This document shows, piece after piece, positions 20,923 to 23,775 of a DNA stretch of 35,136 bases. A program made the position numbers and the translations under genes. A model generated the notes under the pieces. The model saw only the letters and a list, made by a program, of their open reading frames with translations. It did not search any database and was not told the DNA's origin. The stretch spans positions 1 to 35,136 of the forward strand of contig JACDGV010000026.1 of NCBI GenBank assembly GCA_013821425.1, read 5' to 3'. The DNA is from Nitrosospira sp. (lineage in GTDB: Bacteria > Pseudomonadota > Gammaproteobacteria > Burkholderiales > Nitrosomonadaceae). Positions within the stretch are counted from its first letter, which is position 1, and each line of letters begins with the position of its first letter.

Positions 20923-22443
20923 ATGTGTGGAATTCTGGGTCTCGTCGCACAAACTCCCGTCAACCAGTTGTTATACGATGGGCTTCTGGTGCTCCAGCAT
21001 CGGGGGCAGGACGCGGCGGGCATCGTTACCGCGCAAGGCAATACGTTTCACATGCACAAGGAAGGCGGATTGGTGCGGGACGTGTTCCGCACCCGGAACA
21101 TGCGCGCTCTGCTTGGCAATATCGGAATCGGGCATGCGAGATACCCTACCGCCGGGTCCGGCGAATCGCCAGCCGAGGCACAACCGTTTTATGTCAATTC
21201 GCCGTTCGGTATCGTGCTGGGGCACAATGGCAATCTTACGAACGCGGCGCAGCTCAAACAGGAATTGTTCCGGGAGGACTTGCGCCATGTCAATACCAAT
21301 TCAGACTCGGAAGTGCTCCTCAATGTGCTGGCTCATGAATTGCAGAGAAGCACCAAAAACCATCAACTCGATCCCGCGGCCATTTTTGCCGCGGTGTCAC
21401 GCGTACACCAGCGGTGTCGAGGTGCCTATGCGGTAGTAGCGATGATAGCAGGCTATGGATTGCTCGCTTTCCGCGACCCGTACGGAATCCGTCCACTTGT
21501 GTTTGGCTGTGCCGAGACCGAGTTCGGGCTGGAGTATCTGGTTGCGTCGGAGAGTGTGGCGCTGGATACCCTGGGGTTCAAGCTGGTCCGCGATGTGGCC
21601 CCTGGCGAAGCGGTGTTCATTGATGAAAGCGGTAATTTCTACAATCAGCAATGTGCCGACAATCCTTCGCATAACCCGTGCATCTTCGAGTATGTCTACA
21701 TGGCGCGTCCCGATTCGGTAATGGATGGTATTTCCGTATATGAAACGCGGCTGAACATGGGTGAAAGCCTGGCGGATAAAATCACCACGACCATGCGTCA
21801 TCTTGATATCGACGTGGTGATTCCGATCCCCGATTCCAGCCGCCCCAGCGCCTTGCAGCTGGCAAACCGCCTGGGCGTGAGCTTTCGCGAAGGTTTCGTC
21901 AAGAATCGTTATATCGGCCGTACCTTTATCATGCCGGGACAGCAGTTGCGGCGAAAGTCGGTTCGCCAAAAGCTTAATGCCATGAGCGTAGAGTTTCGGG
22001 GAAAAAATGTTCTGCTGGTCGATGATTCCATTGTCAGGGGCACCACCAGCCGCGAAATTGTGCAGATGGCGCAGGAGGCTGGCGCAAATAAGGTTTATTT
22101 CGCTTCCGCCGCCCCACCGGTAAGGTTTCCCAACGTTTACGGGATTGACATGCCGACGAACCAGGAACTCATCGCCACCGGCAGGGACGAAGATGAAATC
22201 CGCCGCGAAATAGGCGCGGATTACCTGGTTTTTCAGGACCTGGATGCGCTCATAAGCGATGTGCGCCGGGTTAATCCATCTATTACCGATTTTGAAACAT
22301 CCTGCTTCGACGGGCATTACATCACGGGAGATGTTACACCGGAGTACCTGGCCGTTCTGGAGGCGCAACGGGGTGGCGGGGCACTATTGTCGCGCGCCGG
22401 ATCCAGTACACAACTGGATTTGAACCTTGTATCAGCAGGGTAA
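20923..22443 (+). CDS. purF: Amidophosphoribosyltransferase
   Basis: PurF makes 5-phosphoribosylamine from PRPP and glutamine, the committed step of purine synthesis. Cys2 in MCGILGL is the N-terminal nucleophile of the glutaminase domain, so no propeptide is present. The PRPP loop [11 protein letters not shown] is at 366-376, and [13 protein letters not shown] precedes it. The 506-residue length fits the proteobacterial enzyme. A GGAG ribosome binding site (20911-20914) lies eight bases before the ATG. A purR-type operator was not seen. Confidence 0.97.
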
Positions 22444-22449
22444 GGATAT

Positions 22450-22478
22450 TTGACAAAAACGCTTCCCAAGCGTAACTT
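22450..22478 (+). promoter_or_regulatory. Candidate metZ promoter overlapping an inverted repeat
   Basis: TTGACA at 22450-22455 is a consensus -35 box. TAACTT at 22473-22478 is a fair -10 box at 17-bp spacing. Transcription would start near 22485, at the edge of the SAM-II aptamer. The spacer holds a perfect inverted repeat ACGCTT-CCC-AAGCGT (22459-22473), which could be an operator or the end of the purF transcript. Confidence 0.55.
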
Positions 22479-22486
22479 AATAATGT

Positions 22487-22542
22487 TTGCGCCGATTTGA
22501 TATTCAGCTTGCGGGCGCGTTATAAATTCTGCTAAAGCGGGA
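22487..22542 (+). ncRNA. SAM-II (SAM-alpha) riboswitch aptamer upstream of metZ
   Basis: The sequence follows the known SAM-II layout. P1 is formed by GCGCC (22489-22493) with GGCGC (22514-22518), extended by one T-G pair. The first loop has GATTTGA and CTTGC. P1 is followed by the conserved GTTATAAAT and GCTAAA (22531-22536), then GCGGGA, where the pseudoknot strand is expected. Compared with the family consensus recalled from the literature, the GATTTRA, UUGC-x-GCGCGU-x-AUAAAU and GCUAAA blocks agree in order and spacing. SAM-II elements control metA, metX and metZ genes, which fits the gene directly below. It would turn metZ off when SAM is abundant. Confidence 0.85.
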
Positions 22543-22544
22543 GG

Positions 22545-22578
22545 AAACCCGTTTTGGCAACTGCTGAACGGGTTTTTT
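22545..22578 (+). terminator. Intrinsic terminator of the metZ riboswitch leader
   Basis: A 9-bp stem, AAACCCGTT (22545-22553) with AACGGGTTT (22567-22575), closes a 13-base loop. The T run reaches 22578. It lies between the aptamer and the metZ ribosome binding site (AGGAGG, 22582-22587). CGGG at 22538-22541, at the 3' edge of the aptamer, can pair with CCCG at 22548-22551, giving a rival hairpin that would break the terminator. That is the expected arrangement for SAM-controlled attenuation. Confidence 0.82.
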
Positions 22579-22596
22579 ATTAGGAGGAAATCTGAC

Positions 22597-23775
22597 ATGC
22601 CCGACGATTTCGAGCTGCAAACCCTGGCGTTGCATACGGGGATTCACCGTAGTCAATTCAATGAACACTCGGAGGCACTGTACCTCACCTCGAGTTTTGT
22701 ATTCGACAGCGCCGCCCAGGCAGCCGCCCGCTTCTCCGGCGCAGAACCGGGAAATATCTACTCGCGCTTTACCAATCCTACCGTAACCGCTTTCGAAGAA
22801 CGGCTTGCCGCCCTGGAAGGCGCCGAGGCTTGCGTGGCCACTTCGTCCGGAATGTCGGCCATCCTTGCCTGCGTGATGGGGTTGCTATCCGCGGGGGATC
22901 ATATTATTGCATCGCGCAGTCTGTTCGGTTCCACGGTAAGCCTGTTCAACAATATTCTCAAACGTTTCAATATCGAAACGACATTTGTTTCCGCAACCGA
23001 CATTTCGGCATGGGAGGCCGCGGCGAAACCTGGGACGAAACTCCTGTTTGTGGAAACGCCATCAAACCCGCTTACTGAAATCTCCGATATCAGCGCGCTT
23101 GCGGCCGTGGCCAAAAAAGCCGGCGCATGGCTCGCGGTTGATAACTGTTTCTGCTCGCCCGCACTGCAAAGGCCCCTCGAACTGGGCGCCGATCTGGTGA
23201 TTCATTCCGCCACTAAATACCTTGAGGGTCAGGGCAGGGTGCTGGGCGGCGCGGTACTTGGTGGACGCGACCTCGTGATGGATGGAATATTCAGCTTCCT
23301 GCGTACCGCCGGACCAAGCTTGAGCCCCTTCAACGCCTGGGTGATCCTGAAAGGAATGGAAACCCTGAAAATCCGCATGGAGACGCATTCTGCAAATGCA
23401 GTGGAAATTGCTCGCTGGCTGGAAGCGCAAACCGGCGTCGCCAGGGTCTATTACCCCGGTTTGCCTTCGCATCCCCAATACGATCTCGCGAAACGTCAAC
23501 AGAAAACCGGGGGCGGGATCGTTTCTTTTGAGTTGGAAAAAGGAAGAGAAGCGGCATGGCGCGTGGTGGACTCGGTTCGTCTGATTTCCATCACCGCTAA
23601 CCTGGGTGACACCAAGAGCACGCTCACTCATCCCGCCACTACCACCCATGCCCGCATCAGCCAGGAAAGCAGGGATGCCGCAGGGATCGGGGAGGGTTTG
23701 CTGCGGATTGCCGTGGGACTGGAGGCGGTCAAGGATATACGCGCTGATCTGGCAAGGGGATTGCGCGGGGAGTAA
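22597..23775 (+). CDS. metZ: O-succinylhomoserine sulfhydrylase
   Basis: MetZ makes homocysteine directly from O-succinylhomoserine and sulfide, a PLP-dependent step of methionine synthesis. The PLP lysine is Lys207 in IHSATKYLEGQGR. SRFTNPTVTAFEERLAALEG (56-75) and ATSSGMSAIL (81-90) are the usual Cys/Met-metabolism motifs. FVETPSNPLTEI and the final GDTKSTLTHPATTTHA are also present. The 392-residue length fits the family. The assignment to the succinyl rather than acetyl form rests on family resemblance. It is the last gene of the rightward run and converges on gspF with only 27 bases between. Confidence 0.93.
   Translation: MPDDFELQTLALHTGIHRSQFNEHSEALYLTSSFVFDSAAQAAARFSGAEPGNIYSRFTNPTVTAFEERLAALEGAEACVATSSGMSAILACVMGLLSAGDHIIASRSLFGSTVSLFNNILKRFNIETTFVSATDISAWEAAAKPGTKLLFVETPSNPLTEISDISALAAVAKKAGAWLAVDNCFCSPALQRPLELGADLVIHSATKYLEGQGRVLGGAVLGGRDLVMDGIFSFLRTAGPSLSPFNAWVILKGMETLKIRMETHSANAVEIARWLEAQTGVARVYYPGLPSHPQYDLAKRQQKTGGGIVSFELEKGREAAWRVVDSVRLISITANLGDTKSTLTHPATTTHARISQESRDAAGIGEGLLRIAVGLEAVKDIRADLARGLRGE

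Follow-up and report, generated by a model that had tools for sequence, protein, structure and literature searches.

A probable SAM-II riboswitch attenuator before metZ in Nitrosospira, and its likely identity with the metXZ element and Bp2_287

What controls the methionine gene metZ in the ammonia oxidiser Nitrosospira? In the window, the 35,136-nt stretch of Nitrosospira sp. DNA analysed here, metZ (22597–23775, plus strand; O-succinylhomoserine sulfhydrylase, NF006003, 711 bits against a cut-off of 522) follows purF (TIGR01134, 526 bits). With the end of the purF frame at 22443 and the metZ start at 22597, the plus-strand gap spans 153 bases (22444–22596). The original prediction placed a −35 box, a SAM-II aptamer, a terminator and a ribosome-binding site in this gap, in that order, and all four lie where it put them. 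The leader reads, on the plus strand, as a −35 box (TTGACA, 22451–22456), a probable −10 box (TAACTT, 22474–22479; 17 nt after the −35 and matching TATAAT at 3 of 6 positions), the aptamer, an antiterminator/terminator strand, a run of six U, the metZ Shine-Dalgarno AGGAGG (22582–22587) and the metZ start. Transcription probably starts near 22486, a few bases before the first aptamer helix. Our analysis indicates that the leader is very probably a SAM-II riboswitch, in a sequence variant frequent among beta- and gammaproteobacteria, acting on metZ through transcription attenuation.

The Rfam SAM_alpha model (RF00521), whose use on this leader had been proposed, matches 22479–22556 on the plus strand with 35.3 bits, at E 1.1e-6 for the 241-base region searched and E 3.4e-6 for the whole genome. 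The next best site in the genome has E 0.295, leaving the metZ leader as the clear top site, and the SAM-II long-loop model RF01726 gives the leader only 12.5 bits (E 8.7). The score lies 0.7 bits below the RF00521 gathering score of 36, and a gathering-threshold Rfam scan of the window is therefore empty. The shortfall recurs in the family, where 40 of 125 genomes match RF00521 at E 0.01 and two exceed the cut-off. The window scores low because the model is centred on the alphaproteobacterial form. Apart from this cut-off, every computational test of a SAM-II attenuator came out positive at the metZ leader.

The aptamer has the two helices of the class. P1 (GCGCC, 22489–22493, with GGCGC, 22514–22518) closes around loop L1 and the 5′ strand of the pseudoknot P2, and is paired in all 26 distinct rows of the family alignment. 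L1 (GAUUUG, 22494–22499) carries a UUU (22496–22498), invariant in 27 of 27 family leaders, at the place of pocket nucleotides U10–U12. P2 joins UUCAGCUUGC (22503–22512) to GCUAAAGCGGG (22531–22541); in the register of the crystal structure, 22512–22507 pair with 22531–22538 and, past the bulged A22506, 22505–22503 pair with 22539–22541, the window’s two outermost P2 pairs being G–U. The crystal structure has a completely conserved pocket of U10–U12, U20–C23 and G42–A47 (PMC3764141). Mapped by motif, with UUGC at 22509–22512 as U20–C23 and GCUAAA at 22531–22536 as G42–A47, all 13 of these nucleotides occur in the window, and none varies among the 27 aligned family leaders; U22533 and A22536 correspond to the ligand contacts U44 and A47 in P2. 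SAM is the probable ligand of the metZ leader.

The family alignment comprises 27 of 30 reference leaders, with the window in place of L001; the near-duplicates L017 and L029 and the divergent L037 were left out. A search of it for compensatory change in P1 and P2 found none, the sequences being too alike. A wider set of 33 betaproteobacterial aptamers comprises the window, L010, L016 and 30 of 36 betaproteobacterial loci, the six with a long or unusual L3 (L060, L076, L112, L129, L141 and L155) being left out. Here, 92.4% of P2 cells are paired, and two pairs in P1 and two in P2 show changes on both sides; these four compare with 1.2 in shuffles, and none of 500 shuffles reached four. The number of pair types in this set is not unusual (83 of 500 shuffles). 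The family test placed the UU–AA pairs of P2 one base off the crystal structure, and the 33-aptamer test uses the structure’s own register; both registers count as paired because the letters concerned are invariant.

Downstream of the aptamer, two further helices compete. The antiterminator pairs 22531–22541 with CCCGUUUUGGC (22548–22558), and its 3′ strand overlaps the 5′ arm of an intrinsic terminator hairpin (22543–22577; core AACCCGUU, 22546–22553, with AACGGGUU, 22567–22574) that runs into a U-tract (22573–22578). The original prediction drew the switch as a CGGG (22538–22541) pairing with a CCCG (22548–22551); the places and the pairing are right, but these four pairs are only the inner third of an 11-bp helix. 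Across the 26 distinct family rows, 96.5% of antiterminator cells are paired, falling to 31–57% if one strand is slid by 1–3 columns, and the terminator core is paired in 98.6% of cells (4–62% if slid). No compensatory change in either helix was found within the family set because its sequences are too alike, and the evidence for the two helices is thus conservation, not covariation. The energies are −16.1 kcal/mol for the antiterminator and, with the aptamer strand kept unpaired, −16.3 kcal/mol for the terminator in the window, and −14.8 and −16.7 kcal/mol respectively as means over 27 leaders; the two helices are near-equal in energy in these leaders. Folding had been suggested as a check on the switch: the unconstrained fold of the window leader (22480–22600) gives the antiterminator, and keeping the aptamer strand unpaired gives the terminator. 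When the free segment from GCUAAAG to the U-tract is folded, the antiterminator forms in 19 of 27 leaders and the terminator in 8.

The antiterminator 5′ strand is exactly the whole P2 3′ strand. Because these 11 nucleotides are common to both helices, the SAM-bound pseudoknot and the antiterminator are mutually exclusive, and the antiterminator in turn excludes the terminator, as both use the terminator 5′ arm. From the two exclusions it follows that SAM should cause termination, a direction suggested by this anatomy and by the prediction made for metZ of Sinorhizobium meliloti. In the mechanism we propose, the RNA would start a few bases before P1. At low SAM, 22531–22541 would pair with 22548–22558, the terminator would be blocked and metZ transcribed. 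Once SAM is bound, P2 would hold these 11 bases, leaving 22543–22558 free to form the terminator, and transcription would stop near 22578 to give a leader RNA of about 90 nt. The metZ Shine-Dalgarno lies outside P1, P2, the antiterminator and the terminator.

The arrangement recurs before the best-matching metZ genes. When 58 metZ matches were ranked by protein similarity, the best 30 came from two genera and included the window; 29 of these carry the intact, contiguous element with a terminator, and in the thirtieth the element is split by an insertion; none of 19 metZ leaders from a third, sister genus of the family has it. The occurrence of the element before these best 30 metZ genes is more than chance. 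All 29 family leaders compared, the window among them, have a TTGACA no more than 90 nt ahead of P1, and in 27 of them a TAnnnT follows it at the 17-nt spacing. A simple generic scanner listed neither the leader’s promoter, for which it requires 9 of 12 matches, nor its terminator, for which its loop limit is 8.

The element is also widespread beyond the family. A pattern scan of named genomes returned at least 120 matches, of which the 103 whose P1 has 5 bp or more were kept and 17 with a shorter P1 dropped. The pattern fixes GATTTG, GCTTGC and GCTAAAG, so their conservation in this set proves nothing, and evidence was counted only from pairs outside them. Among the matches listed, 17 of the 103 loci form class A, with GGCCG-like loops and mostly from alphaproteobacteria; the other 86, defined as everything not in class A, form class B, to which the window belongs and which spans beta-, gamma- and some alphaproteobacteria, for example Thalassospira and Bradyrhizobium. 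For the pair tests 85 of the 86 were used, one locus without downstream sequence being dropped. Four of the ten P1 and P2 pairs tested in these listed class B matches exceed all 2000 shuffles, which ignore relatedness. At the second outer P2 pair, 72 of 85 loci have a standard pairing, with five recurring pair types, where shuffles average 40.4 and never exceed 53. Three pairs of P1 are standard in 83, 79 and 52 of 85 (shuffle maxima 68, 77 and 44). The other six pairs, including the three other outer P2 pairs, lie above the mean and within the shuffle range.

A covariance model, here called R1, was built from the 33 betaproteobacterial aptamers only. Tried on the 30 highest-scoring RF00521 loci, all of them in genomes outside the window’s class, R1 recovers every one (E 8e-8 to 8e-4); its top score elsewhere in these sources, or in seven control loci, is 10.9 bits. 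In the sample of the order, R1 matches 288 of 399 genomes and 126 of 158 genera at E 0.001. On a set of 399 genomes bearing the same labels, RF00521 reaches 177 at that E-value, 69 of them over its cut-off. In a phylum-wide sample of 398 genomes, 84 have an RF00521 match and 69 exceed the cut-off, and the scores grade from 88 bits down to the 26 bits that mark the E-value limit. We took the first open frames after the 103 listed elements mechanically and clustered them (clusters of 27, 22, 6, 6, 6, 3 and smaller). A scan of ten cluster representatives identified two as MetZ and the others as a MetX, a MetA, a phosphoadenylyl-sulfate reductase and an aliphatic-sulfonate binding protein, apart from a protein that resembles MetN and another, truncated by the locus end, that resembles MetH, both under their curated cut-offs, and two that gave no match at E 1e-50. 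From these identities, the element targets mainly methionine and sulfur genes.

Terminators follow the aptamer in 66 of the 103 listed loci (53 of 86 in class B, 13 of 17 in class A), compared with 3, 11 and 11 in rounds of mononucleotide shuffling; two of the 103 have less than 60 nt of downstream sequence and were not examinable. For 24 of the 53 listed class B terminators, pairing to the aptamer strand is unusually strong (z < −1.5), and this pairing is seldom locus-specific (8 of 53 at 0.1 or less); in the listed class A loci the signal is absent (mean z −0.10; 2 of 13). The antiterminator layout is thus frequent outside the family and not universal. We also looked for TTTRGC, a motif complementary to GCYAAA, in the 100 nt that follow the aptamer. 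It occurs in 12 of 84 listed class B loci (shuffle mean 3.1, maximum 11 of 200), against 13 of 84 for a reversed-motif control, and in class A in none of 17, with the reversed motif in 13 of 17; the motif was rejected and no claim is built on it.

Could the leader act in another way? A SAM-II aptamer might work mainly on translation, with P2 hiding a ribosome-binding site as proposed for the Sargasso Sea type and the terminator being incidental. Translation control has been reported for the metA SAM-II switch of S. meliloti (PMC9373788), and a GGGAGG (22539–22544) that resembles a Shine-Dalgarno lies partly inside P2. This GGGAGG is not conserved, however, other family members reading GCGGGAAAACCCG and similar; the Shine-Dalgarno of metZ itself lies beyond the terminator and outside P2, and a terminator is present at 29 of the best 30 of 58 metZ genes chosen by protein. 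We regard translation control as quite improbable. The same GGAGG-like motif precedes a nine-codon frame (TTG...TAG, 22554–22583), which raises the thought of a leader peptide controlling the terminator by ribosome-mediated attenuation, but the frame holds no run of methionine codons and the Shine-Dalgarno-like motif is absent in relatives such as L013, L022, L027 and L034, so that a leader peptide is barely credible. Both readings were set aside because neither the GGGAGG nor the short TTG frame is conserved.

The other two alternatives concern what the element is. Leyn 2014 described a ‘metXZ’ element in 35 genomes, of which 30 have it before metXW and others before metZ, Nitrosospira multiformis among them; it has six conserved blocks, a pseudoknot pairing blocks 1–4 and 2–6, a terminator and a suspected antiterminator (PMC4239095). 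The authors’ Rfam scan was positive for SAM_alpha only in Rhizobiales and Rhodobacterales, and they treated metXZ as new (PMC4239095), which would fit a distinct element that answers to another signal, such as a protein or another metabolite, and resembles SAM-II by convergence. Against such convergence stand the identical ligand-pocket nucleotides, the recovery by the beta-only model of every RF00521 locus tried (30 of 30), the grading of RF00521 scores from 88 to 26 bits and the presence of class B in alphaproteobacteria as well; we judge it quite improbable. Equally, the conserved RNA might be a minus-strand small RNA of the Bp2_287 type, the plus-strand features being its reverse complement. 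RF02424 (Bp2_287) does match the minus strand of the leader (22457–22578; 30.4 bits against a gathering score of 70) and that of relatives, and Khoo 2012 assigned the RT-PCR-verified candidate to one strand (PMC3521395). The terminator with its U-tract, the promoter, the Shine-Dalgarno, the gene order and the SAM-II pocket motifs are all on the plus strand, however, and Khoo et al. themselves proposed a cis-acting element for methionine genes (PMC3521395). A minus-strand RNA as the conserved species is very improbable.

RF02424 is antisense to the SAM-II element in all six places observed (the window, L129, L141, L190 and, weakly, L077 and L116, at E 0.018 and 0.48), with only L129 and L141 over the gathering score; at none of these six sites beside SAM-II elements does the match lie on the strand of the functional RNA. 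We take the minus-strand match to be the reverse complement of the SAM-II element. RF02424 takes its name from Bp2_Cand287, which Khoo 2012 located in front of methionine genes and thought might be cis-acting (PMC3521395). A 2024 review table equates an expressed Burkholderia cenocepacia transcript, RIT77, with Bp2_287 (PMC10987360), and Bp2_287 is mentioned once in PMC6337395.

Returning to the SAM-II riboswitch, the class assignment of the original prediction is backed by the covariance model, the pocket identities, the covariation of the pseudoknot, the conserved promoter and the competing terminator and antiterminator; class membership, the pseudoknot, the terminator and the overlap of the three helices are computed. 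Its remark that SAM-II in a betaproteobacterial metZ leader is worth recording needs a correction, since betaproteobacterial SAM-II is already on record. Corbino 2005, the paper that defined SAM-II, has Bordetella bronchiseptica on its list and describes putative terminators for many of the sequences (PMC1273637); Barrick and Breaker 2007 had SAM-II in beta-Proteobacteria with terminators; a 2009 account found it commonest in Alpha-, Beta- and Gammaproteobacteria (PMC2704228); and the Nitrosospira metZ element of Leyn 2014 is on record under its other name. The leader is itself an ordinary, well-made example of SAM-II and not a rarity, and its added value is as a bridge between SAM-II, metXZ and Bp2_287.

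We consider it likely that metXZ, Bp2_287 (drawn on the wrong strand) and the window leader are one class B SAM-II riboswitch, the usual methionine switch of the order, mostly under the Rfam cut-off and with its pseudoknot strand serving as the antiterminator strand. In this reading the strand that holds SAM would double as the antiterminator strand, and one set of 11 nucleotides would serve both to bind the ligand and to switch. From the order of the published blocks, the six blocks of metXZ would correspond to GCGCC, GAUUUG, CAGCUUGC, GGCGC, AAAU and GCUAAAG; the 2–6 pairing of Leyn 2014 would then be the U–A–U triples of the SAM pocket, and the partnerless block 3 would be the true P2 strand. 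Among the openly licensed papers surveyed, we found none linking SAM-II, metXZ and Bp2_287, which is weak evidence, and no such link in the accessible parts of PMC7367207, PMC6337395 and PMC12452182. This reading offers SAM as a testable ligand for an element left without one in a betaproteobacterial comparative study. The far higher scores that the Rfam model gives to the alphaproteobacterial form are a possible reason why SAM-II looks rare in betaproteobacteria, and the Rfam small RNA family Bp2_287 is probably drawn on the wrong strand.

Among the closest known systems is SAM-II itself (the metA motif, RF00521), with which the leader shares P1, the pseudoknot P2, the 13 pocket nucleotides and the position before a methionine gene, as well as a promoter directly before P1 and a terminator after P2 (PMC1273637). 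It departs from the RF00521 form in its class B P1 (GCGCC/GGCGC), the bulged A in P2 (UCAGCUU with AAGCG), a short outer P2 and a score under the cut-off. The S. meliloti metZ switch, for which termination on SAM binding is predicted, resembles the leader in the controlled gene, the predicted SAM-triggered terminator and a short terminated leader RNA; that RNA, the RZ sRNA, is more abundant at high SAM, but its stability is also higher then (PMC9373788). The S. meliloti metZ aptamer is, unlike the window’s, presumably class A, judging from Rhizobium loci. Bp2_287 shares the leader’s position ahead of metX or metZ, and its neighbouring genes include purF (PMC3521395), whereas in Rfam it is modelled on the opposite strand and classified as a small RNA gene. 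The metXZ element, compared by its published description only, fits the leader in position, taxon and architecture, and differs in that the accessible text of Leyn 2014 makes no link to SAM-II and proposes no ligand (PMC4239095).

The covariance model built from 33 betaproteobacterial aptamers (R1) matched none of the 19 metZ leaders of a sister genus in the same family (g3, probably Nitrosomonas; loci L247–L265) at thresholds up to E 1, and a weak match to RF00521, the Rfam SAM-II model, was found somewhere in 4 genomes of that genus. Judged by these sequence searches, the metZ switch seems to have been lost in g3.

A metZ aptamer in a relative from the same genus as the window (genome G095; L218:1196-1432) is interrupted in loop L3 by an insertion of approximately 230 nt, which is bounded by imperfect terminal inverted repeats of 22 nt and has a predicted fold of −96 kcal/mol. 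The locus still has the two aptamer halves, the terminator and the start of metZ. Stretches matching the insertion occur 17 times in G095 itself and 14 and 9 times in two relatives; a search for matches in the window's genome returned none.

Some genomes of the order contain two to five matches to R1. At L037:1179-1338, on the minus strand, two SAM-II-like aptamers scoring 46.1 and 31.4 bits lie in tandem, followed downstream by an open frame of 280 amino acids that has no Pfam match at E 0.01. Four further loci (L059, L060, L077 and L116) carry a second SAM-II-like copy within approximately 130 nt after the first. Among the matches listed, both copies at L059 fit the search pattern exactly; the second copies at the other three loci were recognized by eye only, and Rfam reported none of them at E 0.5.

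Between the −35 and −10 elements of the window promoter lies a small inverted repeat, ACGCTT CCC AAGCGT (22459-22473). The sequence AAGYGTA recurs ahead of the −10 element across leaders of the family, and this repeat or motif could serve as an operator or belong to an extended promoter.

RF02424 (Bp2_287), catalogued as a 'Burkholderia sRNA', matches locus L129 on the minus strand (815-638, 141 bits), antisense to the aptamer at 672-733 on the plus strand. The Rfam model of this family seems to represent the strand opposite a SAM-II leader.
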